Position numbers and translations under genes: made by a program. This document shows positions 1-57,062 of a stretch of 64,000 nt of DNA, one piece after another. Positions within the stretch are counted from its first letter, which is position 1. Every line of letters begins with the position of its first letter. The notes under the pieces are model-generated. The model was not told the origin of the DNA and did no database searches. It saw nothing but the letters and a program-made list of their open reading frames with translations. Source of the stretch: an uncultured Prevotella sp. (GTDB lineage Bacteria; Bacteroidota; Bacteroidia; Bacteroidales; Bacteroidaceae). The stretch covers positions 62,001 through 126,000 of the forward strand of contig CAMHAM010000001.1 in assembly GCA_946183415.1 (NCBI GenBank), written 5' to 3'.

Positions 1-1
1 C

Positions 2-6100: not shown

Positions 6101-6986
6101 CAGTAAAATAACAGGCACCGCCGCTGAGCCCAAGCAGGATGACGCCCGCTACACGGGAGACAATCCGGCCGGGAACTATGACGACGACCATAAAACGTGG
6201 CAGGAAGCCTATGATAAAAACTTTAAGGATGCGAATGCTGCCATTAACGCGAGGAATCAGGAGCGCAAGGACAAGCGCACGACGCTCGTCGGCTGCGTGA
6301 ACGACTTGGCTTCGGCCTTTTCCGGTGTGTTCAAGGCCTTCGATGACATCAAGAAAATGGCAAATCTGGTGTCTCAGAATACCATCACGGAAGACAATAA
6401 GAACAAGGCGATTGCCAGCATTAAGAAGTATGGCGATTACATCGGAGCCAGCGACCACAAGCTCTTTGATGCCCTGGCCAATAATAAGGTTGACAAAGAC
6501 ACCGACTTTACGCAGGAGATCGGTGACGACGTAAAGAAGATGTGGAAGCGGAAAGCCATCATCGACTATCTCGGTCAGGTAACCCAAACCGTGAACGATG
6601 CCTTCAGTGGTGACACCGTCATGATTGCCTCGCTCGTGCCCATCGATGTGATGAACGATATTCTCTGGGGTGCTGGCATCGATGCGATGTTCACCGAGAA
6701 GCAGATCTCATGGGGAGGCGACATGCTTGATCATATCAAGGACTCGACAATCGGGGCAGTGAAGGAATGGGCCAAGGATGATATCTGGCACCCGATGAAG
6801 TCATTCGGGCTGTCGGTCGTTGGAAAGCACCGTTGGAAGACGGGCGTCCACGGCAAGATCCTGATGTCCGACTCGCCGAGCATGACTATCAGTTTCGACA
6901 GAGACGGCAATCCCGTCAGGCAGTTGAACACCGTGGGCTCCGACAAGAGTATTTTTGAATTAAGGGACTACATTAAATCATTGTAA
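3147..6986 (+). CDS. vgrG: Large VgrG/TssI spike protein with C-terminal extension (copy 1)
   Basis: At 1279 residues this is about twice the usual Bacteroidetes VgrG. Residues 1 to about 520 look like the gp27 hub (YLVQYNESFYDFLKRTANRCGE is a conserved hub segment). Residues about 560-640 form the gp5-like OB domain, ending in EGNVERPYVSGYL. A short beta-helix follows near 700-770 with FTGITVSAPNG. The last 500 residues are a helical, charged extension with no motif I recognise, ending in a short strand-rich tail. The extension may be an effector domain or a loading platform (an evolved VgrG). The next gene begins 1 nt after the stop. A paralogue lies at 53330. Confidence 0.88.
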   Translation: MSEVKLYLFSDPNQKGSGIGLNQSGQVHFTDLRVEVLPSKTDSSGNVTTVTMTTTIKGTITALLSKLDYTKQMYEPGVINATLSLTAMGIEEPAYKQVKKDKNGKVLETKEGGHSTGLRKSVPITRDKIMSALSHAKAELRIDGNVVAEHYFVYKVRTLHKKNAESDVSVELTIYSEDKLLTLEKYSKAYTAKKLGADIFKSEIGNFNLSDDTSYGVSLQLLSYDSDKKELRQPYLVQYNESFYDFLKRTANRCGEFLYHEGGKLHLGVALNRLDLDTKDKDGNILATPVDYATVAHERYYESLYDGDVFSNGDTVEDYAYNYLNKEENAEHYANSKNGKFHYNDPLVTDEYLDDIGTKYTTFGGEYDEIEKIAMSQLLKALSGTSFSEIVDNFALAAVSNAVEAAVNEGSKNGDNRDANISPWKDGDKPKAGTEDQWNGNETLRQFGTYGKKKSRISENSVNLNAMFYSLVRKAEKKVGEDAVWLEFGEDAQNLKLGDVVKVETISYLVVKIFGKYEYKSESETEMIQEVVAIPLYTVPSTSSTADMIAIPFALKKEVAVREAHPQLAFVAENLDPMKIGRVRIRFAWQEESGDVSPWIRVALPFATNGGGIKFKPEKGDEVLVAFEEGNVERPYVSGYLLSERSNESWGSLSDRVIMSKNGHGITFTDGAGSDFFYKNLGPMKGLFRSWFPTSVWPDTLEDKASCAALSGGIKLRDQYGLYEISASSDERTVKIESAMGDVTLNAFTGITVSAPNGNIKIAGKNVEIAASNVLKLSSGSALKDRFFPNSASGDISLPSVGGIAIKTTWDTVLGLGKGLVGNIVDKLLDLSLIRTVLEVVLRPIDGTTSIKSSTFLEIQAGKGSVEIPPERVIKNADPKTFPDVRNALDAIASTVVNNVETINNAAQQLAEKLNRYKDLSGDADGMINKSEGAIGLATVKGKGWKASADQLKEDDVAFKWDAVGLKDEELVKEDDAKQKANDEISKITGTAAEPKQDDARYTGDNPAGNYDDDHKTWQEAYDKNFKDANAAINARNQERKDKRTTLVGCVNDLASAFSGVFKAFDDIKKMANLVSQNTITEDNKNKAIASIKKYGDYIGASDHKLFDALANNKVDKDTDFTQEIGDDVKKMWKRKAIIDYLGQVTQTVNDAFSGDTVMIASLVPIDVMNDILWGAGIDAMFTEKQISWGGDMLDHIKDSTIGAVKEWAKDDIWHPMKSFGLSVVGKHRWKTGVHGKILMSDSPSMTISFDRDGNPVRQLNTVGSDKSIFELRDYIKSL

Positions 6987-6987
6987 T

Positions 6988-8970: not shown

Positions 8971-8986
8971 GATATTATAACCAGAT

Positions 8987-9700: not shown

Positions 9701-9720
9701 CTAATTAATAATTAAGGAAT

Positions 9721-10107
9721 ATGGGAAATTTCGTAACAATGGGAGCGATGCTCCAGTGTAATCAGGGAATGGCACCCTGCTCGTTAATAGTGACCGTACC
9801 TCTGCGCCCGAAATGCATGAACATGCTGATGGCTACGACGATGGACTTCACGCCGGCAAACATCCCGACCTTCGGCATGTGCCGCTCGATGGCCAATCCG
9901 ACGGTCTCCGCCGCCACGTCGGCCGCGATGGGCGTGCTGACGCCGATGCCGTGCGTACCGGTGATCCCTGCTCCCTGGGCGCCGGGCAGTGCGATGGTGA
10001 AGGTGATGAACATGCCAGCACTGACCAACAATAGTAAATGTATGTGTACCTGGGGCGGTCAGATATCCATCACCAGCCCGGGTAACACGATGGTGTCAGG
10101 CAAGTAG
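9721..10107 (+). CDS. PAAR-like spike tip protein, DUF4280 family (copy 1)
   Basis: This 128-residue protein begins MGNFVTMGAMLQCNQGMAP and has regularly spaced Cys, Met, Pro and Gly residues, matching the DUF4280 PAAR-like family. Such proteins cap the VgrG trimer as a sharp cone, probably metal-bound by conserved Cys. Motifs include TFGMCRSMANP, PCVPVIPAPWAPGS and CMCTWGG. It is short, with no fused toxin domain. It starts 20 nt after the adaptor-like gene. A second copy at 61959 closes the other module. Codon choice at 9880-9960 is richer in GC than in that second copy. Confidence 0.85.
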   Translation: MGNFVTMGAMLQCNQGMAPCSLIVTVPLRPKCMNMLMATTMDFTPANIPTFGMCRSMANPTVSAATSAAMGVLTPMPCVPVIPAPWAPGSAMVKVMNMPALTNNSKCMCTWGGQISITSPGNTMVSGK

Positions 10108-10132: not shown

Positions 10133-11122
10133 ATGATGAAGAAAGGCATCGTAGGCTTGTTCATGGCTTGTCTGTCGGGGGCTGCCAACGCGCAGTATAT
10201 CCCGGCTTACCAGCCTGACTCCTTTGCTGTGAAGGCTGCGGATGTGGTCTACTGGCACAAGGGTAACCTGCTGAAGCATTTAGAGATGTCGCTGACGGTG
10301 GGAACGTCGGGCGTCGGTATCGACCTAGCCGTTCCGCTTTCCCAGTACGTACAGGTGCGTGCGGGCTATGACTACATGCCCCCTTTCAAAAAGACGTTTA
10401 GTCACAAGGTGCTTGGTAATGGTAAGGAACCTGTAGCCTACGACGCGAATGGCAACCGCCAGGAGACTCCCTTCAACAGGATTTCCGAATACTATTACAA
10501 GCAGCACGGCTATGAGTTGCAGGATCATGTCGACCTGAAGGCTAAACTGACGATGAGCAACTTCAAACTGTTGTTCGACGTCTATCCGCTGAAGTACAAC
10601 AAGAGTATTCATATCACGGCGGGCGTCTACATCGGACCAGCGCAGTTTGCCAAGGTAAACGAGGCTGACGGCCAGACGGAGATGATGGATGCCATCCTGA
10701 CCTATAACAAGGAATACAGGGCGGCTACCGACGGCTCCCTTAAGGACATGGGCCTGTTGTCGATCCAGATGGGTAACTACTCGCATAACTTCCAGCAGGG
10801 TGACAAGCAGCGACTGATGAATGCCGCCTACGAGATGGAGCCGACAGCCGAAGGCAACGTGGAGATCCTTTGCACGTCGAACAGCATCAAGCCCTATCTG
10901 GGCTTAGGCTATGGCGGTCTGCTTTCCCCGAGCCGTAACGACTGGAAGATCACGGTGGAGCTGGGTGCGATGTTCTGGGGCGGTACGCCCACATTAAGAA
11001 CCCATGACGGTACAGACCTCACGAAGGACATCAAGGACTATCCCCACTCGATCACGAAGATCGTGAAGGCTCTGAAGGTCTATCCTGTACTGAGTGTGAG
11101 GATTGCCAAGACATTGTTCTAA
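10133..11122 (+). CDS. Secreted outer-membrane-barrel-like protein in the T6SS operon
   Basis: About 329 residues when started at the ATG at 10133; an in-frame GTG at 10118 would add five residues and is less likely. The first 20 residues are a signal peptide ending in ANA or NAQ. The rest alternates short polar and aromatic strands (VQVRAGYDYMPPF, MSNFKLLFDVYPL, HITAGVYIGPAQF, KPYLGLGYGGLL) and ends in YPVLSVRIAKTLF, with a terminal Phe as in many beta-barrels. It is probably an outer-membrane protein. Lying between the PAAR and PEGA genes, it may form part of an envelope anchor of the apparatus; that role is inferred. Confidence 0.65.
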   Translation: MMKKGIVGLFMACLSGAANAQYIPAYQPDSFAVKAADVVYWHKGNLLKHLEMSLTVGTSGVGIDLAVPLSQYVQVRAGYDYMPPFKKTFSHKVLGNGKEPVAYDANGNRQETPFNRISEYYYKQHGYELQDHVDLKAKLTMSNFKLLFDVYPLKYNKSIHITAGVYIGPAQFAKVNEADGQTEMMDAILTYNKEYRAATDGSLKDMGLLSIQMGNYSHNFQQGDKQRLMNAAYEMEPTAEGNVEILCTSNSIKPYLGLGYGGLLSPSRNDWKITVELGAMFWGGTPTLRTHDGTDLTKDIKDYPHSITKIVKALKVYPVLSVRIAKTLF

Positions 11123-11138
11123 CCCAAAAGCGACCTGT

Positions 11139-12503
11139 ATGAGACGAATCCTGACCTTACTCCTGTTGACCGGACTTCTGATACCAGCAATGGCTCAGAA
11201 GATCAGTATCGAAGGGTTTAAGAAGGTCAAGAAGGATTTGTTGAATCAGACTCCCCTGCCGGTGGACAAGACGCAGGCGACGATGGATTTCCTGACCGAC
11301 GAGAAGGGATTCACGTTCAAGGCCGATGGCAAGGTAGACGTACAGCCCGAGGAGGCAGACGGAAAGATTACCGTGCTGACACCCCACAAAACGAAGTTCC
11401 TGGTCATCAAACATCCCGACTACGGGCAGTATACGTGGAAGGTGCCGGGCAAGGGACTGAAGAAGAAAAAGCATTACCAGGCGAATCTGCTGAGTGACAA
11501 GCCTGGAAAAGAATATAAGCTGGCGAAGCAATGGGTGGTGTTCCAGGTCGTGCCCCAGGATGCCATCGTTCAGGTAGACAGCACCACGATTCTCACGCGT
11601 GACGGCCGTGCTCAGTTCAATCTCACTATAGGCAAGCACCCCTACCGCGTGGACTCACCCTTCCACGAGGCTGTGGAGGATACGCTGGAGGTGACGGATA
11701 GCGTGAAACTGATCCTGCCAGTCGTGTTGCAGTCGTTCTACTCCTACATCAACGTGAAGCAGCCGATGCTCGACGCAGTCGTGTTCGTCGATGGCTTCCC
11801 AATCGGTAAGGGAGAGGCGACCAGCGGTCATCTGCATACCGGCGATCATCGCCTGCAGATCTACCGCCTAAGAGAATGTTATTACGACTCGGTCTTCAAC
11901 ATCAGGAAGGCAGAGAAGAAAGTCATCGAGCTGTCCTATGCGGATCTGAAGCCCAGACCGCAGATAGCGAAGATGGCTGTTGCCGCCCAGGTGCCCGAGC
12001 CTGTAGTGGCCGATACATTGGCAGCTGTGCCCGACTCCCTGGCTGCTGGCAAGGACTCGCTCAACGTTGGTCCTCAATATGCTCAGGTGACCATCACGGC
12101 ACCTGACGACAGCACCCGGATATGGCTGAACCGTGAGCCTATGGGTGTCGGCAAGTGGGAGGGACAGCTCGAACTGGGCTATTACACCGTCAATACGCTG
12201 AAGGATGGTCTGGAGTCGAAGACCTACCCGTTCTGGGTTGACGACACACTCCCGAAAGTGCTCGACCTGAGTGCCCCGCAGGCGAGCTACGGTCTGTTAA
12301 ACGTTCATAGTAACGTGATCGGTGCGACCGTCAAGGTGAACGGTGTGGAAGTGGGGCAGACCCCTTGTGTGGTAGAGAACCTGCCGGCCTCGAAGGAGGT
12401 CCAGTTGCAGTTGACCAAACGAGGCTATTTCGATGCGCATGCCGTCCTGACACCCATCGGGAACGACATGCTGGATGTAGAACTTAAAATGAGAAAGAGA
12501 TAA
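11139..12503 (+). CDS. Secreted PEGA-domain protein of the T6SS operon
   Basis: The start chosen is the ATG at 11139, because MRRILTLLLLTGLLIPAMAQ is a signal peptide directly after it; the longer frame overlaps the previous gene. The mature protein of about 434 residues has several PEGA-like beta units. The clearest are near 205-260 (DAVVFVDGFPIGKGEATSG) and at the C-terminus (GATVKVNGVEVGQTPCVVE). A Ala/Pro/Asp-rich linker separates them. PEGA domains are common in surface-layer and envelope-bound proteins. Its stop codon is followed at once by the E1-like start, so it is translationally linked to the ubiquitin-like genes. It may be a periplasmic scaffold of the secretion machine. Confidence 0.7.
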   Translation: MRRILTLLLLTGLLIPAMAQKISIEGFKKVKKDLLNQTPLPVDKTQATMDFLTDEKGFTFKADGKVDVQPEEADGKITVLTPHKTKFLVIKHPDYGQYTWKVPGKGLKKKKHYQANLLSDKPGKEYKLAKQWVVFQVVPQDAIVQVDSTTILTRDGRAQFNLTIGKHPYRVDSPFHEAVEDTLEVTDSVKLILPVVLQSFYSYINVKQPMLDAVVFVDGFPIGKGEATSGHLHTGDHRLQIYRLRECYYDSVFNIRKAEKKVIELSYADLKPRPQIAKMAVAAQVPEPVVADTLAAVPDSLAAGKDSLNVGPQYAQVTITAPDDSTRIWLNREPMGVGKWEGQLELGYYTVNTLKDGLESKTYPFWVDDTLPKVLDLSAPQASYGLLNVHSNVIGATVKVNGVEVGQTPCVVENLPASKEVQLQLTKRGYFDAHAVLTPIGNDMLDVELKMRKR

Positions 12504-13634
12504 ATGAGTCATGGCTTTGATCAACAGCAGGTAGCTGCCGCCCGTGTGATGGTGGTCGGTTGCGGTGCCTTAGGAAATGAGGTGCTGAAGAACCTGGTGT
12601 TGCTGGGTGTGGAGCATATCGTGGCTGTCGACTTCGACATCGTCGAGGTTGGCAACCTGTCACGCTCCGTGCTTTTCTCGAAGCAGGACGCCGATGACCG
12701 CCGTCTGAAGGTGGAGGTGATCGCTGAGCGTCTGAAAGCCATGAACCCGGCCGTGGAGGTGAAGACCATCTGCGGCGATATCGCCTATGATGTCGGCCTG
12801 GGACTGATACGCCAGATGGATGTCGTGATAGGTTGTGTCGACAGCCGATGGGCACGTTACTGCATCAACCGTCTTTGTATGCGTGCAGGTATCCCTTGGG
12901 TCGACGGTGGCATTGAGGAACTTGAAGGAACGGCCCGTGTGTTTGTGCCTGGCAGAAACTGCTATGCTTGTAACCTTGGGCCAGAGGGACTGAAAGATAT
13001 GGCCAGAAGAATGCCCTGTTCGGGAATCATCCGGCGTCAGGAACAGACTGGGCATGCCCCCACAACGTCGGTGGTTGCTTCAGTCATAGGTGCAGTAGAG
13101 GCGCAGGAGGCTATGAAGTTGGTACATCGTGACGCTTTGGAACAGGGTAAACTGACTTCACTCTGTGGGAAGATGTTCTACTACGATGGTCAGCATCTGA
13201 CTACGAAGTTGATAAACTTCCAGGCTTATGATGATGATTGTGCCATGCACGATATATGGACACCGATAAAGCCGTCGGCACTTACTGTCGGAAAAACTGT
13301 GGCTGAGACTTTGGCTGAAATCCGTCGGGTCTTTGATGCCCAGCAGGCTGCGGTGTGTCTGGAAAACGACTGTTTCGTGGACTATATCGTGGAGCGTTCC
13401 AACGACAGAAGGACTCAGGTGATGCGTCCAGGTCATGCAGTCGAGCAGTTCGTTGAGTGTGATAAGGTGTTGCGTGGCATTCCCCTGAGCTGCATGTACC
13501 AGCATGAGTTCCGGGAAATCGACAAACACTTCCCCTATCCCTCGTGCACCCTGTCGCAGCTGGGAATCCCAGCCCGCGACGTGTTGCATGTTGTGGCCGA
13601 CGGGAAAGACTATTATCTTGAAATGACAGCGTGA
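12504..13634 (+). CDS. E1-like ubiquitin-activating enzyme (ThiF/MoeB/E1 superfamily)
   Basis: A 376-residue adenylating enzyme. Residues 12-24 form the nucleotide loop VVGCGALG, followed by acidic VDFD (42-45) and NLSR (51-54), then CVDSR (111-115) and GG....G (134-142), all typical of ThiF/E1 proteins. CYAC at 153-156 with CAMH at 246-249 could make the zinc site. Cys172 in MPCSG, ahead of APTTSVVAS, is a candidate catalytic Cys. Residues about 255-376 add a domain not found in MoeB or ThiF, ending LGIPARDVLHVV, possibly the ubiquitin-fold domain that E1s use to hold E2. It starts directly after the PEGA gene stop, and its TGA overlaps the ATG of tssG. It is expected to activate the Ubl encoded at 17865. 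Confidence 0.88.
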   Translation: MSHGFDQQQVAAARVMVVGCGALGNEVLKNLVLLGVEHIVAVDFDIVEVGNLSRSVLFSKQDADDRRLKVEVIAERLKAMNPAVEVKTICGDIAYDVGLGLIRQMDVVIGCVDSRWARYCINRLCMRAGIPWVDGGIEELEGTARVFVPGRNCYACNLGPEGLKDMARRMPCSGIIRRQEQTGHAPTTSVVASVIGAVEAQEAMKLVHRDALEQGKLTSLCGKMFYYDGQHLTTKLINFQAYDDDCAMHDIWTPIKPSALTVGKTVAETLAEIRRVFDAQQAAVCLENDCFVDYIVERSNDRRTQVMRPGHAVEQFVECDKVLRGIPLSCMYQHEFREIDKHFPYPSCTLSQLGIPARDVLHVVADGKDYYLEMTA

Positions 13635-14458
13635 TGAAACTGGAGAGAAACTTATATCAAATCAGGGCCGAGGTGCTGTTGAACTATCTCTATCCGGAGA
13701 TGGAGGACAGTTGGCTTGTGCAGAGCAAGGGTACGTTCTACCGGAACTACAACCAGGACTTGTTGGAACTGAATCTTGAAGAGCATAAGGTGCAGCTGGC
13801 CCGCGACGGTTTCATGAAGCTGCTTCCGGAGGGCCTGCTTACGAAGGATACCGACTTGAAGGGCGAGGATGTGGCCCAGAAATTCAAGGAGCTGGAATGG
13901 CGCAAGGAACTGCTGACCGAGGCTTTTGCCCCCTTCGACACCTATGTGTTCTACAAGAAGCTGACGATCGAGCGCTACACCTCGGAGCTGCTGGAGCACA
14001 AGCTGGAGTACGTGCTCAAGACATACTTCGACTTCGACCTGGCGTCGGAGCCCAGTCCGCTTGTCAGGGAGGCGGCAGTCCTGCTGCCTTTTGTCAACGG
14101 CCTGCGTGGCGACTTCGGCTTCATATCCAGCTTGCTCGGTGCTTTGATGGATTGCGAGGTAGAGCACTCGGAAGGCCGCTACAGCGATATCGACACCACT
14201 CTGTGCTGGCTGCCGGAGGTGAGGTACAGGCTGCTGATCCCTGGCCTGACGGCTGAGGAATATAGGAAGAAGACGGAGCAGCTGCAGCCCCTTATTGACT
14301 TCGTGAAGGAGTGGCTCATCCCCTTCGAGGTGTGTTGCGACATCTGCATCAGGGAGCACCCCGACGCTGCCGGCAATCCGCACGAGTGCTTGACACTCAA
14401 CTATAATACAGAATTGAGCAGTCAGACTGCAGAAACAGAAGAAGAGAATATAAATTAA
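13634..14458 (+). CDS. tssG: T6SS baseplate subunit TssG (T6SSiii type)
   Basis: A 274-residue cytoplasmic protein. The ATG at 13634 overlaps the E1-like stop codon (TGATG), so the two are translationally coupled; a GTG at 13631 is the alternative. The segment LARDGFMKLLPEGLL at about residue 55 resembles the conserved LPEGLF segment of Bacteroidetes TssG, and it lies beside tssK, tssE and tssF, which make up the baseplate wedge with TssG. The C-terminal 25 residues are acidic and Ser/Thr/Glu-rich. The assignment rests on this motif, length and neighbourhood. Confidence 0.7.
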   Translation: MKLERNLYQIRAEVLLNYLYPEMEDSWLVQSKGTFYRNYNQDLLELNLEEHKVQLARDGFMKLLPEGLLTKDTDLKGEDVAQKFKELEWRKELLTEAFAPFDTYVFYKKLTIERYTSELLEHKLEYVLKTYFDFDLASEPSPLVREAAVLLPFVNGLRGDFGFISSLLGALMDCEVEHSEGRYSDIDTTLCWLPEVRYRLLIPGLTAEEYRKKTEQLQPLIDFVKEWLIPFEVCCDICIREHPDAAGNPHECLTLNYNTELSSQTAETEEENIN

Positions 14459-14467
14459 GGTAAGATA

Positions 14468-15661
14468 ATGGATCTGAATTCGAAAATCAACTGGTTCCCA
14501 GGTATGGAAGTCACCGCCAAGACCTTCATCGGTCTGGAGGAGAAGCTGGATTTTCAGCAGCAGATAGCCATACGTGCAGCCTTGGGCAGTACGCGGATGG
14601 GCATGCTTCCCGGTGCAACTTTGAACTGTGAGGGCATCTTTGTCAAGAATACCTATGAGATAGAGCGGCTCCAATGCATGGCCCTCCTTCCGTCGGGGAG
14701 GATCGTCCACGCCGACGAGCAGGCAGTCGTGTCTATTCCCATGCTGTTCGGCGAGAGTTATTACCTGACAATAGGTATCGGCGATACCACGACGGAGTTT
14801 GAGAAAGAGGGCGTACCGTACGTGCGTCCGCACTATGAGTACGCCATCAAGTCCCTTGAGGAGGTAGAGCAGAGCGACGTGATGCCGCTTGTCCACTTCA
14901 TCGTGAAGGAAGGTGTCTTCTCCATCGACAGCGACTACATCCCTCCGTGCCTGATGATGACGAGCGATCCGCATTTTGCTGCCTATCTCGATATGTTCAC
15001 CGACCTGATGGCCGTCATCAGCGAGCACGAGAACCTGGAGGAGGGCGACGGCAAGCGGGCCATGATGCGCTATCTGTTCGTGCTGAAGGGCTTCAGCAGG
15101 AAGAACAGCGTCCACGATTTCGTCATGCAGCTGCAGGAGATTGCCCACGCGATAGACTATTTCATATTCAAGCCTCACTCGGACCAGGCCTATGAGGTGA
15201 TAGAACCCTCGCAGGTGGATATCCGCTACTGGCTGGAGTGGTTCTATAATTACATGCAAGGGGCTGTCACGGTGCTCGACAAGGTGGTGCTTGTCGACAA
15301 CACCATAGACTACGACGCTCTGCTGAGGCAGGCCAAAGAGGAACTCTACGCCCAGTTGCATGAGGAGCTGATCGTGAAGTTGCTCTCGGAGACGAAGGAG
15401 GAGCTGATGAGGCTTGTCAGGGAAGAACTGACCAACTCACTCGACGCCCAGACACGCACGCTGACCGACTATATCGACAACACGATGAAGCCGCAGCTGC
15501 GCGAGCAGATACAGTCAGAGATGAAGGCGGAGATAGAGCGCATGAGAGACGACCTGACGGACAGCCTCTACGACCATCTGTATACAATACTCTTCGAGCA
15601 CCTCTTCAATGCACTCTACGTGCCGGAGCCCGAAGACGAGAAATTCGTACCACTTATATAG
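14468..15661 (+). CDS. tssK: T6SS baseplate-membrane linker TssK
   Basis: This 397-residue protein has the TssK opening (INWFPGMEVTAKTFIGLEEKL), in which the baseplate protein begins with a W.(P/E)GM segment, and LLPSGRIVHADEQAVVSIP in the shoulder domain. From residue about 285 a long amphipathic coiled coil replaces the usual neck and head (EELYAQLHEELIVKLLSETKEEL and following). It is slightly shorter than proteobacterial TssK. TssK trimers link the wedge to the membrane complex. It starts 9 nt after tssG and ends 6 nt before tssE. Confidence 0.82.
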   Translation: MDLNSKINWFPGMEVTAKTFIGLEEKLDFQQQIAIRAALGSTRMGMLPGATLNCEGIFVKNTYEIERLQCMALLPSGRIVHADEQAVVSIPMLFGESYYLTIGIGDTTTEFEKEGVPYVRPHYEYAIKSLEEVEQSDVMPLVHFIVKEGVFSIDSDYIPPCLMMTSDPHFAAYLDMFTDLMAVISEHENLEEGDGKRAMMRYLFVLKGFSRKNSVHDFVMQLQEIAHAIDYFIFKPHSDQAYEVIEPSQVDIRYWLEWFYNYMQGAVTVLDKVVLVDNTIDYDALLRQAKEELYAQLHEELIVKLLSETKEELMRLVREELTNSLDAQTRTLTDYIDNTMKPQLREQIQSEMKAEIERMRDDLTDSLYDHLYTILFEHLFNALYVPEPEDEKFVPLI

Positions 15662-15667
15662 TAAGCT

Positions 15668-16123
15668 ATGCCATTCCTGTCCATACCCCTGGAGGTGAAG
15701 AAGAAAGGCTTTGCCAGAGAAAAGAGCCTGAAGAAGTCGCTCGACGAGTCGCTGTACATGCTGTTGACGACGCCCCGCTACAACAATGTGTCGGATCCCG
15801 AGTACGGCTTCATCTTCAACAATATGCGCTTTGAGATCTTCGACGAGCATGAAGGCGTTATCTACAACTCGGGCGACACGATCTACGATCGCGGCTTCAA
15901 GGATATCTACAGCAAGAAGATATCCGGCTCGTCGAAGAACATGAACACGTTTGCCGCCGAGTTGAAGGAGGTGGTGAAGAGCTACGAGAAGCGCCTGAGT
16001 GACATTGCGGTGACGATGACCTACATACGCGAGGAGCGTCTCATCTATGTCACCATCAAGGGAGTCATCATACTTACCAAGGAAGACTATGTGTTCACCA
16101 GTACGCTGAGAGTATGGAAATAA
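15668..16123 (+). CDS. tssE: T6SS baseplate wedge protein TssE (gp25-like)
   Basis: A 151-residue gp25/GPW-family protein. Residues 20-45 contain SLDESLYMLLTTPRYNNVSD, where gp25 proteins have an I..LL.TR.G segment that initiates sheath polymerisation. A central helix (MNTFAAELKEVVKSYEKRL) is followed by three C-terminal strands (RLIYVTIKGVIILT). This matches the size and order of T6SSiii TssE. Its place between tssK and tssF (13 nt) supports the call. Confidence 0.8.
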   Translation: MPFLSIPLEVKKKGFAREKSLKKSLDESLYMLLTTPRYNNVSDPEYGFIFNNMRFEIFDEHEGVIYNSGDTIYDRGFKDIYSKKISGSSKNMNTFAAELKEVVKSYEKRLSDIAVTMTYIREERLIYVTIKGVIILTKEDYVFTSTLRVWK

Positions 16124-16136
16124 ATGACCAATAATT

Positions 16137-17861
16137 ATGAAACAGACGATATTTGAAAACAAGCAGAGAGCCGATGAGCTGATGCGCGAGGCCATACGCA
16201 TCTGGCGCCAGAGCGACCATGGAGACCAGCTTGAGGGAATCGAGCAGGATCCTGTGTTCTCGCTCCTGATGACGGCCCTGGCCTACCAGTCGAACGAGAC
16301 GGAGAGCTTCCTGGAGCAGATGAAGTCTGACGTGCTTGACGACTTCGCCCGTTTGCTGACGCCCTATGAGGTGGGGCATGCCATACCGGCCACGGCTGTG
16401 GTGGAGACTTCCCTGCAGTCCGGGCTGAACGAGATGGAGCTGACGGAGCAGCATGTCTTTACTCTGCCGGAAACGGAGGCCCGCTTTATCTCGCTCCTCC
16501 AGACGAAGGTGTTCAATGTCTCCGTCCGCTCGGTGGTGAGAATGGATGGCCGCCGGTGGAGAGTATCGCTGAAGTTCGACAGCCCCGTCTCGGATCTGTC
16601 GGGCTTCTGCTTCGCCGTCAAGAACCATAACTTCAAGAATCTCAGATTGTCGGTGAAGGGACAGCTGCTGCCTCTGGTCAGTCCCTGGGATTTCTCAGAG
16701 CTTCCCCTCATGCCGTGCTTCAGTATCGACAGCATCCTGTATAATCGTACCCAGACTTACAGGGCTGCGGCCAGTTGCCTGGATCTCTTTGCTCGGCAGA
16801 ACATCCGTCTCTACTACATCAAGAAGCATCAGGGAAGCAAGTATATCCCTTCTGAGACCGACAGCATCGACCTGGTGTTTGAGTTCACGGGCATCAGGGA
16901 CGGTTTCCTCTTCGACCGCAACAACCTCTTTCTGAACAGCGTCATTCTCGTGAATGCCTCCGTGCACACCGTTGACATATCCTCTACCACGCCCATCGTC
17001 CGTGTGGCAGGCTTCCAAAGCCCCAGCTCGGATGGCGAGAACGTCAGTCAGCAGTTCCTGCACATGCTGCGCCCGTCTTCGGACCAGATCTATGGTAAGG
17101 TGCCCGTCGAGGTACGCAGGGTGGCGGCTGACCGGTTTAACCAGGGTAGCCTGGTGGCGTTGTTAAACACCCTGATCAGCAGGTACTATACTGATTTCTA
17201 CGCCTTCTCCAATCTCCGTGAAGAGGCCAGCGACAAGGTGATGCAGAACCTGATCGACATCCTGTTACGGATGAGAGACTCAGCCAGGGCCGACCTTGAG
17301 CAGCGCGTACCGGGTGTCTACCTGCTGCTTCGCCCCGAAGCCGGCAAGCAGAACCTGCCAACCTCGCTCTCAGTGTCGTATGTCACGACGATGGGGTCCG
17401 CCGTCAATTCGTCTCTGACGGCAGATGTCTCGTTTCAGGTGCCTAATGGCTTCGACAATGTGGCTACCCGCCAGATCGGTGCCCCAGTGCCCGGCAGCGA
17501 CGAAATGATCGACGAGGTTGAGGAGGCCAGTATGACCCGCTACTACATGACGACCCACGACCGGCTGGTAACCCCCGCAGACCTGAAGTTGTTCTGCTAC
17601 ACGGAACTGCAGACCCGGTACGGCATAACACACAGTATGGTGAAGCAGGTGACCGTCAGCCACCGTCATCAGCAGGAACGCTCGGAGGTTGGCTATGAGA
17701 TCCTGGTGGAGATCGTTTTGAACGACAATGCCTTCATCCGTCGTGGCTTTGAGGAAAAGATCCCTCAGACGGAAGCACTGATGCGCGCCATGATGAGTGT
17801 CAGGTCCACTAATATATACCCGATACAAGTAACCATTCAGATAGATAAGCAAAATCAATAA
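16137..17861 (+). CDS. tssF: T6SS baseplate protein TssF (VasA family)
   Basis: A 574-residue protein of the TssF/VasA family, the main wedge component pairing with TssG. The N-terminal part has EGIEQDPVFSLLMTALAYQ followed by a long helix (ESFLEQMKSDVLDDFARLLTP), the usual TssF start. The middle has strand-rich domains (DLVFEFTGIRDGFLF), and the C-terminus has VTPADLKLFCYTELQ and a ferredoxin-like ending. Length is normal. Its stop is separated from the Ubl start by only three bases, so the ubiquitin-like gene is very likely made from the same message at a linked rate. Confidence 0.88.
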   Translation: MKQTIFENKQRADELMREAIRIWRQSDHGDQLEGIEQDPVFSLLMTALAYQSNETESFLEQMKSDVLDDFARLLTPYEVGHAIPATAVVETSLQSGLNEMELTEQHVFTLPETEARFISLLQTKVFNVSVRSVVRMDGRRWRVSLKFDSPVSDLSGFCFAVKNHNFKNLRLSVKGQLLPLVSPWDFSELPLMPCFSIDSILYNRTQTYRAAASCLDLFARQNIRLYYIKKHQGSKYIPSETDSIDLVFEFTGIRDGFLFDRNNLFLNSVILVNASVHTVDISSTTPIVRVAGFQSPSSDGENVSQQFLHMLRPSSDQIYGKVPVEVRRVAADRFNQGSLVALLNTLISRYYTDFYAFSNLREEASDKVMQNLIDILLRMRDSARADLEQRVPGVYLLLRPEAGKQNLPTSLSVSYVTTMGSAVNSSLTADVSFQVPNGFDNVATRQIGAPVPGSDEMIDEVEEASMTRYYMTTHDRLVTPADLKLFCYTELQTRYGITHSMVKQVTVSHRHQQERSEVGYEILVEIVLNDNAFIRRGFEEKIPQTEALMRAMMSVRSTNIYPIQVTIQIDKQNQ

Positions 17862-17864
17862 GAT

Positions 17865-18182
17865 ATGGAAGATTTCTTTTTGGACATTTCATACAAGAAC
17901 AAAGTTGTCAGATTCAAGGTCGTGAATCCTGACGCACCGTTGAGTACGTTGATAGATAATCTGCGTCACTCTATCGGTGAAGACGGTCGTCTGATTTTTG
18001 ATTTTCCGTCGATAGATCAGACAGGTGCACCTTTAGACTATTTCTTTGGCAAGGAGGACCCCGAGGTGCACGAGGTGAGGGTGCTGCGTCCCCGCATAGG
18101 TCGCGAGGACCAGAAGCTGGCCGACTATCATGTGAAGAACGGCGACCTGGTATATCTCGTGCCAGATCCTATTCCGGGCTGA
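17865..18182 (+). CDS. Ubiquitin-like beta-grasp protein ending in glycine
   Basis: A 105-residue protein with the beta-grasp order: strand FFLDISYKNK, strand VVRFKVVNPDAPLSTL leading into helix LIDNLRHSIG, later strand HEVRVLRPRIG, then LADYHVKNGDLVYLV, which lines up with the L.DY......L.LV end of ubiquitin. It finishes DPIPG, so the mature C-terminal Gly is already exposed and no JAB-type processing is needed; none is encoded in this window. Resemblance to YukD-like Ubls is also possible. It lies 3 nt after tssF and 19 nt before the E2-like gene. It is expected to be adenylated by the E1-like protein and passed to the E2. Confidence 0.82.
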   Translation: MEDFFLDISYKNKVVRFKVVNPDAPLSTLIDNLRHSIGEDGRLIFDFPSIDQTGAPLDYFFGKEDPEVHEVRVLRPRIGREDQKLADYHVKNGDLVYLVPDPIPG

Positions 18183-18201
18183 TAAAGGTAATGGTGAAGG
18201 G

Positions 18202-18798
18202 ATGAAGGTGCTAGAGAGTCAACAGTATGATCCCCGTCAGCTCAGCGGGCGTAATCGTCGTCTGCTGTATGAGTGGCGGCAGCTGGAGGAGAGACTGGCT
18301 GCCCGTCGAGACATCTCCTTCAGCATCGTCAGAAGGAATGCCGCAGGGCTGCCCGTTGCGTACTTGATAGACTATCATCTGAGAAGCATCTGCGGCGTGG
18401 AGCATATGGACAGCCTGAATGAGGATGGTGTGGAGAACAGGCCGCTCTTCTCCGAGGGCTTCCGGATGGCGCTGGAACTCCCGACAGGCTACCCAGATGT
18501 CGATGCTCCTCCGATGCTGAACTTCCTGACTGTGGACGCCTCCGGGCAGCCGATTCCGCATCCCTGGCATCCCAACATCCGATACTTCGGAGCATTTGCA
18601 GGGAAAGTGTGCATCAATATGGCAGACACCTATACAGATCTGCTGTGGGGCGTAGAACGGGTCGCCTCGTATCTGAGATACGATACCTATCACGCCATCA
18701 TGGAACCTCCCTATCCCGAAGACCTGAAGGTTGCAGCGTGGGTGAGGCATCAGGGAGAACCGAAAGGCTGGATTTATTTTGAACAAAAGAATAATTGA
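18202..18798 (+). CDS. E2-like ubiquitin-conjugating enzyme (UBC fold)
   Basis: A 198-residue UBC-fold protein. Residues 15-35 form the first helix (GRNRRLLYEWRQLEERL). Strands include MALELPTGYPDVDAPPML (89-106). The active-site stretch has HPN at 123-125 and the candidate catalytic Cys137 in GKVCIN, 14 residues beyond His123 (in UbcH5-type E2s the gap is 10). Trp149 matches the conserved Trp after the Cys, and PPYPEDLKVAAWV near 169-181 matches the usual loop and last helix. All the key E2 elements are present, so it looks active. It is preceded by the Ubl gene, and the next gene begins 3 nt after its stop. Confidence 0.85.
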   Translation: MKVLESQQYDPRQLSGRNRRLLYEWRQLEERLAARRDISFSIVRRNAAGLPVAYLIDYHLRSICGVEHMDSLNEDGVENRPLFSEGFRMALELPTGYPDVDAPPMLNFLTVDASGQPIPHPWHPNIRYFGAFAGKVCINMADTYTDLLWGVERVASYLRYDTYHAIMEPPYPEDLKVAAWVRHQGEPKGWIYFEQKNN

Positions 18799-18801
18799 CA
18801 T

Positions 18802-19956
18802 ATGAATATCAAGAAGATCATACTCATGATGACGGGTTGCCTGATGGCGCTTGGGCTTCATGCACAGACTGTCAGGACCATCACGGTGGCCCAGGGACAG
18901 TCGTATACGGATCACTTGTCGTTGAAGGTGGATTCGAAGGATATGGATATGATGGTGAAGTTCGTGTTCGACGAGGATGCCAACCAGCTATCGGTTAGTC
19001 TGATTTCCTATCGTACTATCTTCGTGTTTTGGGATCGCGTCAGGCTGAAGCCACTGGTAAAGGGACGCAGGATACGCCCGGACCAGTTGCCATACGTTGC
19101 CGCCTATGACCCGAAAGACAAGTTCAAGATCACCAGGCTCTTCAAGTCGACGGTTCCCAAACCCCGTAAAACCTTCTATTTCCAGCGTTGGATGGACTAT
19201 GACGGTCTGCAGCCAGTTCCTCAGGAGTATAATATGGTTAACGACTACATCACACAGACGTTCGACATCCTGAACAAACGTGACCTGGTGACTTTCACGC
19301 TCCATGACATCTTCCTGATGGACAAGATCGAAAAGAAAAAGTATAATCTCTATGAGATTCCATTCGGCCGCGATGTGAACATCGAGTATCAGGTAACCAT
19401 TCAGCGTAACCCCTGTCTGAACTTCACTGACGAGATTGCTTCTACCCAGAAAGCGTTGGAAGGTGTGATGGGAAGTTTCAAGACGTTGCAGAAGAACTAT
19501 GGTAAGGGTAAGGCTTTGTCACAGGAAGCCCTGAAGGCCTTTGAGGATATGAAGAGTAATCTGCTCGAGCAGTACCCGCCTAAAACCGATACCACTCCTT
19601 GCCAGGATCTGACAACTGTCCAGGATACATATAATCAGTATATCGACTCAATCAAGGCGATTCGCTGCGTTTTAGCCGAGGATCCTGCTGATGGTGGAGA
19701 ACTGAATATTCCTACCGACAATGGTAAGGTCATACTGATGAAGGCGCGTCAACTTGACCGTATTGTCTCTCAATGGTTGGTCAGCAAGGATGCTTTCGAG
19801 CGTCGTGACCTGGTACAATCAGGCCAAGGACTGATAGATGAGGTCAACAAAATCTTAGGCAATCGTCAGGGCGGTAGTCCAGCACAGCGACAGGCCATCA
19901 CGATGTTCCGTGCGGCAGAGCGCTATTTTAACAATACATGTAAGAGTAACAAGTGA
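18802..19956 (+). CDS. Secreted periplasmic T6SS-associated protein, family unknown
   Basis: A 384-residue protein. Residues 1-21 are a signal peptide (MNIKKIILMMTGCLMALGLH, then AQ). Residues about 25-210 are strand-rich with aromatic and basic patches (YRTIFVFWDRVRLKPL, RKTFYFQRWMDYDGL). From about 215 it is helical. No catalytic motif or lipobox is seen. It follows the E2 gene by 3 nt, and its TGA overlaps the GTG of the next gene. T6SSiii systems use a set of envelope proteins (TssN to TssR) in place of TssJLM; this could be a diverged member, but I cannot say which one. Confidence 0.6.
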   Translation: MNIKKIILMMTGCLMALGLHAQTVRTITVAQGQSYTDHLSLKVDSKDMDMMVKFVFDEDANQLSVSLISYRTIFVFWDRVRLKPLVKGRRIRPDQLPYVAAYDPKDKFKITRLFKSTVPKPRKTFYFQRWMDYDGLQPVPQEYNMVNDYITQTFDILNKRDLVTFTLHDIFLMDKIEKKKYNLYEIPFGRDVNIEYQVTIQRNPCLNFTDEIASTQKALEGVMGSFKTLQKNYGKGKALSQEALKAFEDMKSNLLEQYPPKTDTTPCQDLTTVQDTYNQYIDSIKAIRCVLAEDPADGGELNIPTDNGKVILMKARQLDRIVSQWLVSKDAFERRDLVQSGQGLIDEVNKILGNRQGGSPAQRQAITMFRAAERYFNNTCKSNK

Positions 19957-20858
19957 AAAGTCATACGAAGTTGCGAAGTAGGCTGAGATACATACAGCTG
20001 TTACTGTGGGCAATGATGCTTGCAGTAACGGTTCGTGCTCAGGAGACTCCTGCAACGTCCTCTTCAGATTCGCTGGCTATCAAGGCTGAGATTATGGCTC
20101 GTCTGACCTTGTTTATGGACGACCTTAACCAGTTATATGTGGTAGAGCAGATGAAGATATCTCTCAATGATGTCAGTATATCACCAACACTTGTGGGGAC
20201 CTTTCAGGATCGCATCAACTATCTCAACCAGTCATATAATGCATTGGATGTCAAGTGGACTACCTACTATCAGGCTTCGCAGTTGGATATTGCCGCTGAC
20301 GAGGAACTAATGGAGGAGGTGGCCAAACTGGAGCAGCTGAAGCAGGTGGTGAAGGACTCCCTTGACATAAGGACCCAACAGGTGGATGCCATTGCCAAGT
20401 TCGCTTCTGCAGACAAGTTCATCATCAGTCATGTTGACGTTTACAAGAAGCTCTATAAGAAAGCCTTTAAGCTATCGCTTCTGAAGAAGTTCGGACCTAT
20501 GTTGGAGAAGGTGAAGGCCAAGGAACAGGTGGTGTTCGGTGAGCTTCAGACAAACTTTGAGCAGGCTAAGGCTGCAAGTGAGATGGTTCCTTCGCTTCAG
20601 ACTAGGATGGAAACGCTGGATGAACAGTATGTCATCATGAAGAGCGTGTCGGAAAAGGTACAGTCCTTGGAGTATAAACCATGGATGCAACGTGTGAAGG
20701 ACTATGTGATGGGGCTGGCTGCCGTGGCGATCATATTAATGTTCGTCAATGGTCTCTGGTCTAAGTTCAAGGCATATAAGGAAAAGGCAGCGAGCCTGAA
20801 GAAGTATAATGATATGTTGAATAATAATGGTAAGGATACAACTTATCCCACCATCTAA
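19953..20858 (+). CDS. Secreted coiled-coil protein with C-terminal membrane anchor
   Basis: A 301-residue protein starting at the GTG at 19953, overlapping the previous stop by four bases. An N-terminal signal or anchor (YIQLLLWAMMLAVTVRAQ) is followed by long coiled-coil helices (residues about 45-245; EELMEEVAKLEQLKQVVKDSL) and a C-terminal membrane helix at about 250-268 (YVMGLAAVAIILMFVNGLW) with a basic cytoplasmic tail. With a cleaved signal it would be a periplasmic rod tethered to the inner membrane, a reasonable part for a trans-envelope assembly. The family is not recognised. Confidence 0.6.
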   Translation: MKSHTKLRSRLRYIQLLLWAMMLAVTVRAQETPATSSSDSLAIKAEIMARLTLFMDDLNQLYVVEQMKISLNDVSISPTLVGTFQDRINYLNQSYNALDVKWTTYYQASQLDIAADEELMEEVAKLEQLKQVVKDSLDIRTQQVDAIAKFASADKFIISHVDVYKKLYKKAFKLSLLKKFGPMLEKVKAKEQVVFGELQTNFEQAKAASEMVPSLQTRMETLDEQYVIMKSVSEKVQSLEYKPWMQRVKDYVMGLAAVAIILMFVNGLWSKFKAYKEKAASLKKYNDMLNNNGKDTTYPTI

Positions 20859-20868
20859 AGATAAGAAC

Positions 20869-23286
20869 ATGGATATGAAGATGAAAATAAGCCGGTTACT
20901 ATTGTTAGCACTGATGACATTCATGATCGTCAGCTGCGATGACAAGTTGTCAGGTGAGAATGTCAATCTTGATGAAATTTTTAGTCCTGATTCTCCCGAA
21001 GATCGAGAACAGAATACTGAGCCAATGAAGGTCGTCGGTATCAAGTTCTCTCCAGATTACAAGACACTCAGACTTTTTACTAGTGTCGTTCGTAGCATGG
21101 GTTTTTATTCTTTCACGGATACTAGTAAGGTGTATGTGAAGGGTTATGAAGTTATCAGTGGTATTGAGAATACTTCTAAGGGACGTCCTCGTCTTGTAAA
21201 AGTCATCAATAGTGAAGGTGATGAAGTGAAACGGCGCAATATCAAGTTGAACGTTCTGGTAGATCTGAACTTACCTCAGGATATTGTTGATAAGGAATGC
21301 AACACCGTGAGGGAAATGATGACTGTTTTCACATCCCCTAGTCTCTACGTGACGTTTATGCATGGTAAGGAGGTATCGGAGACGATGGCACCCACGGATT
21401 ATGTACTGAATAATTATTTTGTCTCCTACGCTGACAGTGTCAAATATCTATACCGATCCATCCTCCTGAAAAAGAAAGAGATGGAAGACCGGGTCGGTGT
21501 GTGGTCAGGTAATCAGAAGATGAGTTTGGTTGTATTCTCCGACGAACGGGTATATTCAGATGAAGATGAGCCGTATGATCCAGAACATTTCGAATTGGAG
21601 GAGCAACTGGTGGGAGACATGCCTGCAGAAGGTGATTCACTTACTATTCAGTGTGTGTATTTCTCTGGGAGTGGTATACACGATAGCGACCAAGGTTCCA
21701 ATGTCCTTCAGGTGCTTTGTAAGAACTATCATGGTCTCTACCAGAAGACTTACGATTGGATCAAACTGAAAAATTCGATTCTTCGTATTGGTAATGAACC
21801 ATTTATTGCTAATGAGTTTATATTTGAGAATCCTGATGGTAAAGTCTATCGTGGTAATCCTCATCAGATGAAGATTGAGGTCTATGATAAGGAAAATGAT
21901 AGTCTGATAGGGTGGACTAGTTGTGCACTTTTTCTGGGTAATGCCTACAATCCTGTTATTGTCAATGGCTATCCTGTTTTCTGGGTATTCATTCAGGGAC
22001 TGGGTCTTGCAATATTCATCTTTGTAATTGTTTACATGGTGTTCCAATTCCTTATACCTTACATTCGCTATATGCTGTTCAAGCGTAAGTACGTGGTCAA
22101 GTATATCAGGGGTATTAATATGAGTGTAGGGAATGTGTATATTGACAAGACCTGTTATTTCTGCAAGGCTCCCTTTGAAGACGGCGATGAGGTGGTGGCC
22201 AAGTGTGACCATGTGATGCATAAGTCTTGTTGGGACGAAAATGGTTATCACTGTCCGGAATTTGGTAGGAACTGTCAGCATGGCTCACATTATTATAATC
22301 ATAAGAACCTCTTTGATCCGAAGAATGCTTCATTCTATATGAAATGGACCTTGACAGCGATAGCTGCAGCTTTTTTAGCATGGTTGTTCTATATGATATA
22401 CGCCACAAATTACACATTGAGCAATGAAGAGCTCGTGGCTCAGATGCGACAAGCCCGTCTAGAGGTTATTGGTACATCAGCTATGTTTGGCGTCGAAGAA
22501 GATCAGATGCGCCACATGCCTGCATTTGGCCTGATCATGGGTTTCTTCCTAACGTTAGCTTTATCTGTTTTGGCTGTCAGAAGACAACAGATTAGCCGTC
22601 GTGTTGCCAACATCTTCATGCGTGCGCTTATCGTGGGTGTGGCATCTTATTTCATTTTTTTGATTGTTGGTACTATAACGTTCTCATTTGAACTAGGAGC
22701 TCTCTCATTCTTGATCGATTGGATACCATGGTCTATGATGGCGGTTTTGATAGCCTATATTTCTACAATAGGTACAAGGATTGTCCTTCGTAGGTCTTTA
22801 GTGCTCGTTGCGGGTGGTCTTGGTGTGTTGTCAATGTATCTGTGGTCATTCCTCTTCCGTGGCATCTATCAGTTGGATATTCGTGCCCTGCTACTTTTCA
22901 GTTATATACTCTTTGCTATTGTCCTAGCTGTTGCAGTGGCTGCAATGGCTCCGAAGTCAGAACGTTATTTCCTCAATGTGAAAGGAGCCGTGAAGGAAAT
23001 GGATGTGGCTATTTATAAATGGTTCTTCAATAATCCAAACGAGATTGTCACCCTTGGTAAGTCTATCGACTGTTCGTTGCATATGTCATGGGATCTTAAG
23101 GGTAAGGTGGCGCCAGTTCAGGCTGAAATCAAAATGGTTGATGATGCACTACGACTGACGGCCTTGGAGGAGGGTGTCATTGTCAATAATAAGCCATTGG
23201 GTGTGGGAAAGGGTATTTGGCTATACCACAATACTTCTTTCTTGATTGGCGACACAACTTTCACCTACATTGAGCGTGATTTATAA
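20869..23286 (+). CDS. Membrane lipoprotein with RING-H2-like zinc cluster and FHA-like domain (candidate E3)
   Basis: The start is set at the ATG at 20869 because it gives a lipoprotein signal (LLLLALMTFMIVSCDD); an ORF start 42 nt upstream is less likely. Of 805 residues, about 30-365 are extracytoplasmic. A membrane helix lies near 375-395. A cytoplasmic cluster follows: Cys429, Cys432, Cys446, His448, His451, Cys454, Cys462, Cys469, a RING-H2-like pattern with an atypical C-x6-C last pair. Several membrane helices follow (about 490-700). The C-terminal 90 residues resemble an FHA domain (VTLGKSIDCSLH, then VIVNNKPLG and FLIGDTTFTYIE). It is the last gene of the operon. An E3 role for the Ubl and a phospho-dependent role for FHA are inferred. 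Its base composition is clearly richer in AT than its neighbours. Confidence 0.75.
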   Translation: MDMKMKISRLLLLALMTFMIVSCDDKLSGENVNLDEIFSPDSPEDREQNTEPMKVVGIKFSPDYKTLRLFTSVVRSMGFYSFTDTSKVYVKGYEVISGIENTSKGRPRLVKVINSEGDEVKRRNIKLNVLVDLNLPQDIVDKECNTVREMMTVFTSPSLYVTFMHGKEVSETMAPTDYVLNNYFVSYADSVKYLYRSILLKKKEMEDRVGVWSGNQKMSLVVFSDERVYSDEDEPYDPEHFELEEQLVGDMPAEGDSLTIQCVYFSGSGIHDSDQGSNVLQVLCKNYHGLYQKTYDWIKLKNSILRIGNEPFIANEFIFENPDGKVYRGNPHQMKIEVYDKENDSLIGWTSCALFLGNAYNPVIVNGYPVFWVFIQGLGLAIFIFVIVYMVFQFLIPYIRYMLFKRKYVVKYIRGINMSVGNVYIDKTCYFCKAPFEDGDEVVAKCDHVMHKSCWDENGYHCPEFGRNCQHGSHYYNHKNLFDPKNASFYMKWTLTAIAAAFLAWLFYMIYATNYTLSNEELVAQMRQARLEVIGTSAMFGVEEDQMRHMPAFGLIMGFFLTLALSVLAVRRQQISRRVANIFMRALIVGVASYFIFLIVGTITFSFELGALSFLIDWIPWSMMAVLIAYISTIGTRIVLRRSLVLVAGGLGVLSMYLWSFLFRGIYQLDIRALLLFSYILFAIVLAVAVAAMAPKSERYFLNVKGAVKEMDVAIYKWFFNNPNEIVTLGKSIDCSLHMSWDLKGKVAPVQAEIKMVDDALRLTALEEGVIVNNKPLGVGKGIWLYHNTSFLIGDTTFTYIERDL

Positions 23287-57031: not shown

Positions 57032-57062
57032 TGAATAGTGAATAATAAATAGTGAATAAGTT

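Follow-up and report, generated by a model that had tools for sequence, protein, structure and literature searches.

Conjugation of ubiquitin-like proteins (Ubls) in bacteria is, to our knowledge, known mainly from defence operons and from sulfur chemistry. Among type VI secretion systems (T6SS), the closest described relatives of the locus studied here are the canonical T6SSiii of Bacteroidales, for which the excerpts of PMC10781749 report that no component of the TssNQOPR membrane complex is dispensable in B. fragilis, that TssN, which carries an EccD-like domain, binds TssK, and that a vWA domain is part of TssR. Here we analysed a window of 64,000 nt (the whole stretch of DNA, on contig CAMHAM010000001.1 of an uncultured Prevotella sp.) and found a T6SS cluster that holds a predicted E1 activating enzyme, Ubl, E2 conjugating enzyme and membrane-bound RING protein. 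That this set is built into the T6SS operon is strongly supported; it almost certainly belongs to the T6SS and, judged by its sequences, very probably conjugates the Ubl.

Compared with canonical T6SSiii (PMC10781749; PMC4714493, GA1-GA3; both in excerpt), the window cluster is alike in its T6SSiii-type TssC and TssD, its baseplate genes and its Bacteroidales hosts, and a vWA domain and a multi-transmembrane protein with a cytosolic C-terminal domain occur in both, whereas it has no recognised TssN, O, P, Q or R, carries the E1-Ubl-E2-RING set with other envelope genes, and has a TssC that forms a separate deep clade in a tree with a long-branch warning. Bacterial E1-E2-Ubl-JAB operons, as presented in excerpts of Iyer 2006 (PMC1779556) and, for CBASS Cap2/Cap3, of PMC11153139, likewise hold E1, E2 and Ubl, and JAB accompanies the set in two sister groups of the window's lineage; unlike those operons, the window set lies in a T6SS operon, has separate E1 and E2 proteins and a multi-domain membrane RING protein, and has no recognised JAB. 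The tri-ligase Ubl set of the FtsH-ternary conflict systems (PMC7159879, in excerpt) also combines E1, E2, RING and JAB with a Ubl, but there Ubl and E2 form one protein, tied to AAA+/vWA effectors and not to a T6SS. EccD and YukD of type VII secretion resemble the present case in placing a beta-grasp Ubl within a secretion system, whereas the Ubl here is free, Gly-ended and accompanied by E1, E2 and RING. The Pseudomonas T6SS is controlled by threonine phosphorylation through a kinase and an FHA protein; the FHA-like domain on the RING protein, and the kinases and FHA proteins of a related T6SS cluster without the set, recall this control, but the modification here would be a protein tag and not a phosphate. 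No report of a T6SS with an E1-E2-Ubl-RING set was found among the open-access papers that capped literature searches listed, the 2011 prokaryotic RING-finger survey not being covered; the excerpted main text of PMC4714493 does not contain 'ubiquitin', 'ThiF' or 'RING', and the December 2025 preprint PMC12694586 (in excerpt) still gives three genetic architectures.

Ten genes lie in a row on one strand between 12504 and 23286, with intergenic distances of 19 nt at most, down to overlaps. A sequence-only reading had set E1, Ubl, E2 and RING protein on one strand among tssG, tssK, tssE and tssF, and every element was recovered where it had been put: E1 overlaps tssG (from 13631) by 4 nt, and the Ubl begins 3 nt past the tssF stop. 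Coordinates throughout are positions in the window, on the + strand; signal peptides and some transmembrane helices (TMs) were called by sight. The block reads as follows:

12504..13634, +: E1-like Ubl-activating enzyme (ThiF 3.7e-51)
13631..14458, +: TssG (baseplate), named from gene order and remote homology, no Pfam match
14468..15661, +: TssK (baseplate; TIGR03353 1.1e-5 and PF05936 0.0038, both below cut-offs)
15668..16123, +: TssE (gp25-like baseplate protein; PF04965 9e-9, above cut-off)
16137..17861, +: TssF (baseplate; family match to canonical TssF of ~1e-17 to 1e-23)
17865..18182, +: Ubl, 105 aa, predicted beta-grasp, C-terminus ...PIPG without extension
18202..18798, +: E2-like enzyme, HPN at 123-125 and catalytic C137 (UQ_con 7.9e-4)
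18802..19956, +: g384, conserved envelope protein present in 85 of 95 related loci; by sight, it has a signal peptide
19953..20858, +: g301, present in 79 of 95 related loci; by sight, it has a signal peptide and a single TM towards the C-terminus
20827..23286, +: membrane RING protein, likely E3 and membrane hub

This arrangement is widely conserved. E2 homologues numbered 628 at E 1e-3 or better among 768 candidates, and 120 related loci were confirmed in genome contigs, of which 80 were kept for counts; their records are titled Prevotella and kin, Bacteroides, Mediterranea, Caecibacteroides, Parabacteroides, Alistipes, Millionella, Paludibacteraceae and other Bacteroidales. TssF, Ubl and E2 recur together in all 80, which excludes a chance assembly of motifs, and 70 keep all ten genes of the block in order; the ten remaining loci include eight without the genes past contig ends, as well as L035, L039 and L046 with an out-of-order g301 match. 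Mean pairwise identity is 0.78 for Ubl, 0.59 for E1 and likewise for E2, 0.68 for the PAAR-like protein and 0.40 for the RING protein, against 0.52 for TssE, 0.50 for TssK, 0.48 for TssF, 0.46 for TssG and 0.95 for TssC (14 rows only); E1, Ubl and E2 are thus conserved as well as or better than the baseplate proteins. The identity matrices of the two groups are correlated (E1-TssK r 0.88, E2-TssF r 0.83, E2-TssK 0.79, Ubl-TssK 0.78), and the baseplate proteins track each other slightly better (TssF with TssG, TssK and TssE, 0.89-0.92).

The enzymes carry the residues that their names require. In E1, the nucleotide loop GCGALGN, the VDFD motif and the CxxC...CxxH set (C153, C156, C246, H249) noted by the sequence-only reading are all present, and C172 occupies the catalytic position on a ThiF fold, as in bacterial Ubl conjugation. 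In an alignment of 77 rows out of a possible 81, four loci stopping short of E1, C172, C153 and C156 are each kept in 76 of 77, with a gap at C172 in the remaining row, and C246 and H249 in 77 of 77; across lineages, C172 and the zinc set are kept in all eight E1 rows aligned. The E1 profile matches SUMO E1 subunit 2 (E 3.4e-21). The HPN motif and downstream cysteine claimed for the 198-residue E2 were confirmed, H123, P124, N125 and C137 being invariant in 81 of 81 rows. Homologues pass the Pfam UQ_con cut-off (28.1 bits in L101, 35.4 bits in L107), and it is on this ground, together with profile homology, that we assign the protein to the UBC family from its sequence. Profile A1, built from 22 rows (the window E2 and 21 of 120 listed proteins), gave 0 matches at E 0.1 against PDB sequences, while the six-row second-lineage profile gave weak matches to E2 enzymes, the best being UBE2K at 0.0014.

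For the 105-residue Ubl, the structure model is a beta-grasp, as had been supposed, and it ends in a C-terminal glycine; the predicted fold matches the bacterial Ubls of 8tyx/8tyz. Its profile links to the second-lineage T6SS Ubls at 99.7% and to the stand-alone Ubl, which itself scores 26.3 bits for YukD (just short of the 27-bit cut-off), at 93.9%. We call it a Ubl because of the predicted fold together with these links; the mutual match of second-lineage and stand-alone Ubls of only 2.1% counts against the call. Against polyubiquitin chains the Ubl profile reached 1.5e-6 solely by summing repeats, with no single stretch passing, and its best single-ubiquitin match was a ubiquitin variant at 0.01. 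The C-termini read DPFPG (66) or DPIPG (14), giving a Pro-Gly end in 80 of 80 loci, and the long C-terminal remnant that trypsin would leave of the Ubl is NGDLVYLVPDPIPG. The structure alignment of the Ubl covered 67 of 81 rows.

The RING-H2-like cluster described for the membrane protein is present, with ligands C443, C446, C460, H462, H465, C468, C476 and C483. These eight zinc ligands (C3H2C3, in RING order) are invariant in 52 of 52 rows, from a structure alignment of 52 of 75 available rows, and it is because of this invariance that we regard the cluster as a RING. The last ligand pair is spaced C-x6-C, where C-x2-C is usual; the RING profile matched RNF24 at 0.16, and no RING model scored above cut-off in any protein scanned. 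Further predicted parts are a lipobox-like C37, a periplasmic vWA domain at ~137-321, a long helix at 384-422 read as a TM, the RING at 443-483, several helices at 504-705 read as TMs and an FHA-like domain at 714-816; the structure-alignment rows of the whole protein span residues 128-322 only, the remaining domains having been compared by Foldseek alone. The protein probably starts near Met17 (~20875), because 65 of 77 rows align a Met there. From this predicted architecture, the protein is likely an E3 ligase and membrane hub. The RING proteins of the window lineage, the second lineage and the stand-alone form are homologous (hhalign 100%); five second-lineage rows keep all eight ligands, and two stand-alone rows have lost several, their RING-like part reading like what we take to be a U-box (DPIT).

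With respect to the secretion system, sheath and tube are of the T6SSiii type by TssC (PF17541) and TssD (PF17642), and the baseplate proteins TssE, F, G and K are present, TssF and TssG through remote homology and order. Canonical TssF is itself a weak PF05947 match (0.0033), and no family model names TssG; in five of ten canonical genomes, its family matches the protein that occupies the tssG position (E 9.2e-11, L141). The genes upstream of the ten-gene block are:

1..1177, +: TssC (sheath), 3' part (PF17541 E 1.2e-82); the gene begins upstream of the window (full gene L004 16813-18177)
1236..1628, +: TssD (Hcp) copy 1 (PF17642 1.2e-25)
1693..2091, +: TssD (Hcp) copy 2 (PF17642 9e-23)
2192..2617, +: TssD-like copy 3 (PF17642 1e-12)
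3147..6986, +: VgrG (TssI)-like protein, 1279 aa (TIGR01646 2.1e-18, below its cut-off)
9721..10107, +: PAAR-like (DUF4280) tip protein (PF14107 2.5e-29)
11103..12503, +: PEGA-domain protein, signal peptide by sight, abutting E1 (PF08308 1.8e-13; in 64 of 95 related loci)

The label T6SSiii, given to the cluster from sequence alone, therefore stands for sheath and tube and does not extend to the membrane complex. Searches of the window, of 95 related loci (L006-L100) and of the class B and stand-alone stretches described below recognised none of TssN, O, P, Q and R, the last four being sought in the stretches read, which sometimes span part of a cluster, and not in whole genomes; TssN above cut-off was also not found in the window's genome (87% complete). 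The models came from ten canonical genomes (TssN, TssO and TssR by Pfam, TssP by PKD domains, TssQ by its place plus a TssO match below cut-off), and the same models do match canonical loci. Neither the RING protein, g384, g301, the PEGA protein nor the class B envelope genes reached a probability of 3% against the TssN/O/P/Q/R profiles, and no Pfam TssN was found in the window proteins, the RING protein and Ubl staying at or below 1.0% against TssN (PF17555). A RING protein that is a fused TssN or TssR was thus rejected (hhalign probability <1%), as was a Ubl that is a TssN fragment. These systems accordingly either use another membrane complex or have one diverged past recognition; in its outer vWA domain, several TMs and small cytosolic C-terminal domain, the RING protein resembles the TssNQOPR parts list without detectable homology. 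Conversely, the T6SS stretches of the ten canonical genomes contained no E1, Ubl, E2 or RING, except for a 70-residue open frame at E 0.0093.

Co-occurrence, which the sequence-only reading had proposed as a check, was borne out: E2 and T6SS genes are found together. In a family sample of 399 genomes, E2 was present in 14 and TssC above cut-off in 33 (36 at E 1e-3), and all 14 E2 genomes are among the 33 (hypergeometric P 3.5e-17, with relatedness ignored). By score, TssC falls into class A (canonical, 15 genomes), class B (12) and class C (the window's, seven), one genome having both A and C. TssN was above cut-off in 15 of 38 genomes examined, exactly those of class A; weaker matches in G636 and G759 fall on other contigs, within open frames of 698 and 662 residues. 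With the second-lineage E2 profile, matches came from 16 of the 38 genomes, namely seven of class C, seven of class B and two with a stand-alone form. In a TssC tree of 27 rows (25 different, 11 of class C), support was 100/100 for C, 100/100 for A and 98/93 for three E2-bearing B rows, which nest among three E2-less B-like rows, all subject to a long-branch warning. Six of seven named strains, Xylanibacter ruminicola D31d for one, have class C as their sole TssC and no TssN above cut-off (one weak match, 9.2e-4), and named strains that hold the cluster also include Mediterranea massiliensis and Millionella massiliensis; the seven are not independent of the 399, because three match the sampled G759, G688 and G614 by coordinates. 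In a phylum-wide sample the set is rare, with E2 in three of 395 genomes, the window's own included, and the stand-alone E2 query in four of 395, one of them weak at 1.9e-5. No E2 was found in 50,697 phage or 72,556 plasmid records, and carriage on plasmids or phages was rejected on that basis.

Bacteroides mediterraneensis An793 (L071, equal to G614 by coordinates) has both a canonical TssN-type (A) and a Ub-type (C) T6SS. In the chicken gut, a B. mediterraneensis strain expresses a TssD, which could be of either system, at about the level of ribosomal proteins (PMC11204068, in excerpt).

The set also occurs in a second T6SS lineage, read here in stretches of 20 kb (L101-L106) from six of the seven class B genomes that have E2. 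Their common order, with insertions in some, is TssB-TssC-Hcp-VgrG-PAAR-like-Ubl-E2-envelope genes-JAB protein-RING-E1-TssG. Simple open reading frame picks returned the Ubl in four of six stretches, RING and E1 in five each and TssK in one, the last because the stretches end near TssG. L105 RING and E1 are, as read, hidden by a longer antisense frame, and L102 and L103, where no Ubl was picked, show one beside E2 in shorter loci of the same genomes (L017, L018). A JAB protein with a TM helix (by sight) lies beside the RING gene in five of the six stretches (L102-L106), its JAMM motif HxHx7SxxD (HSHPG...S..D) intact in all five rows aligned. In the stand-alone form (L107, L108) the order is nSTAND1-E1-Ubl-E2-JAB-RING-like/vWA/FHA-ion channel. 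Prok-JAB is above cut-off elsewhere in three of seven class C genomes, and that of the window's genome (C1:10508-10825) lies ~90 bases from a ThiF gene, with no linkage to the T6SS.

How could such a set serve the T6SS? E1 would adenylate the C-terminal Gly105 of the Ubl and take it onto C172, from where it would pass to C137 of E2. Anchored in the inner membrane, its vWA domain in the periplasm and its FHA domain in the cytosol, the RING protein would bring charged E2 to the baseplate side. A lysine of some protein of the baseplate or membrane complex would then receive the Ubl, which would mark or license baseplate docking; in the sister lineage, the membrane-anchored JAB protein may remove it again. 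Given conjugation, it is a toss-up whether the substrate is a baseplate or membrane-complex part, and in the alignments the conserved lysines (TssE K84, 81/81; TssK K196, 78/79; g301 K249, 76/77; RING K723 and K731, 77/77) single out no substrate. As a whole, we give about even weight to the reading that a T6SS without recognised TssNQOPR uses its operon-borne E1, Ubl, E2 and RING protein to tag one of the machine's own components, probably at the inner membrane, thereby controlling assembly or firing.

Several points weigh against this account. Both the conjugation step and its target are inferred from sequence, and the window's own E2, Ubl and RING protein score below Pfam cut-offs (zf-RING_2 20.3 bits against 27.3; UQ_con 19.5 bits against 27; Rad60-SLD for the Ubl at E 0.031). 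Five B-like genomes have a related TssC with neither E2 nor TssN, so that some TssN-less systems do without the set. Among the envelope genes, the RING protein is the one that the window and second lineages share, the others showing no profile match between the two. No TssC was found in the two genomes with the stand-alone form (controls of that search were blank, and the same model matches 33 genomes), so that belonging to a T6SS is not intrinsic to the set. Among the proteins scanned from the window's cluster, none was recognised as a JAB, which leaves reversibility unexplained there. Finally, a survey found the TssNQOPR complex or part of it in every T6SSiii detected (PMC10781749, in excerpt); either its models passed the present clusters by, or homologues were missed by our models.

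Three of the five E2-less genomes had clusters that were read (G351, G586, G558), and no Ub set was found in them; in the other two, the contig ends too early (G488) or the cluster lies outside those read (G431). Around its TssG-K-E-F genes the G351 cluster (L176/L177), the one of the three that was scanned, has four Ser/Thr kinases, FHA proteins, an M23 peptidase and a peptidoglycan-binding protein, so that phosphorylation seems, by gene content, to sit where the sister lineage has the Ub set.

Among the alternatives, the one that survives best, which we still hold to be rather unlikely, is that the Ubl goes onto something secreted (Hcp, VgrG, the PAAR-like tip or an effector), or onto an incoming phage or rival, in effector tagging or defence rather than in assembly. 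BIL systems, also among the bacterial Ubl conjugation operons, are reported to conjugate a Ubl to a phage tail fibre. E1 here resembles defence-operon E1s (PADLOC E1-E2 family 2.1e-15; Cap2 5.4e-7), the stand-alone relative has an nSTAND NTPase and an ion channel for neighbours and, nearby on the opposite strand, a PAAR-motif gene, and the Ubl directly follows the PAAR-like gene in three of six second-lineage stretches (L101, L104, L106). Against this, E1 and Ubl flank tssG-K-E-F in 76 of 80 loci (those reaching E1), the PAAR-like, PEGA and ribosome-recycling-factor-like genes vary in place, E1, E2 and Ubl correlate less with the PAAR-like protein (0.57, 0.62, 0.55) than with TssK (0.88, 0.79, 0.78), and the phage and plasmid records, as said, lack E2. 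By analogy with EccD, one might also imagine that the conjugated Ubl replaces TssN, through which canonical T6SSiii docks its baseplate and whose cytosolic domain is EccD-like, a free Ubl supplying the EccD-like (ubiquitin) fold by covalent attachment, with the membrane E3 as hub of a new vWA/FHA membrane complex and JAB reversing the tagging in the sister lineage; we consider this unlikely, and fold analogy is what carries it, because the profile probability between Ubl and TssN is at most 1.0%.

A non-covalent scaffold role of the Ubl, as for YukD or the EccD Ubl domain, with E1, E2 and RING as binding partners, appears quite improbable, since without catalysis it is difficult to account for the invariance of the HPN and C137 of E2, the C172 of E1, the Gly end of the Ubl and the RING ligands, and a JAMM-bearing protein joins the set in the sister lineage. 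Stand-alone relatives in two genomes with no TssC found would suit a separate regulatory or housekeeping operon that merely shares T6SS transcription, but this is very improbable given that the genes are interleaved with baseplate genes (E1 ahead of tssG, Ubl and E2 behind tssF; 70 of 80 loci complete) and that the set is common to two T6SS lineages of different gene order. Sulfur transfer or peptide biosynthesis of the ThiF/MoeB kind, which the match of the E1 core to such models might suggest, was rejected as most improbable of all, the scores lying far under cut-offs among the matches listed (25 of 26) and E1 being accompanied by E2 and a RING protein.

Returning to the tagging of a T6SS component, we regard the combination as real, conserved and striking: a T6SS variant with a built-in, membrane-tethered Ubl conjugation set that, as the sequences suggest, probably acts on the baseplate or membrane complex. 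If the set does act on the T6SS, this would be a protein-tagging step inside a bacterial secretion machine, with a membrane RING E3, and a gut and rumen T6SS lineage would rely on an uncharacterised membrane complex in place of TssNQOPR. Should the Ubl in addition replace TssN, building the injection machine would depend on a ubiquitin-like modification.

Around the cluster, some further features were observed. Upstream of the window, an 845-residue frame resembles the ClpV ATPase (L004; named by sight), and the gene next downstream of the RING protein lies on the opposite strand. Inside the T6SS cluster, positions 8987-9700 encode a 237-residue ribosome-recycling-factor-like protein (PF01765 4.5e-8), present in 54 of 95 related loci. 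A second island at 53330-62351 holds VgrG-like and DUF4280-like proteins and no T6SS core genes, and its proteins look, by sight, like those at 3147-10107.

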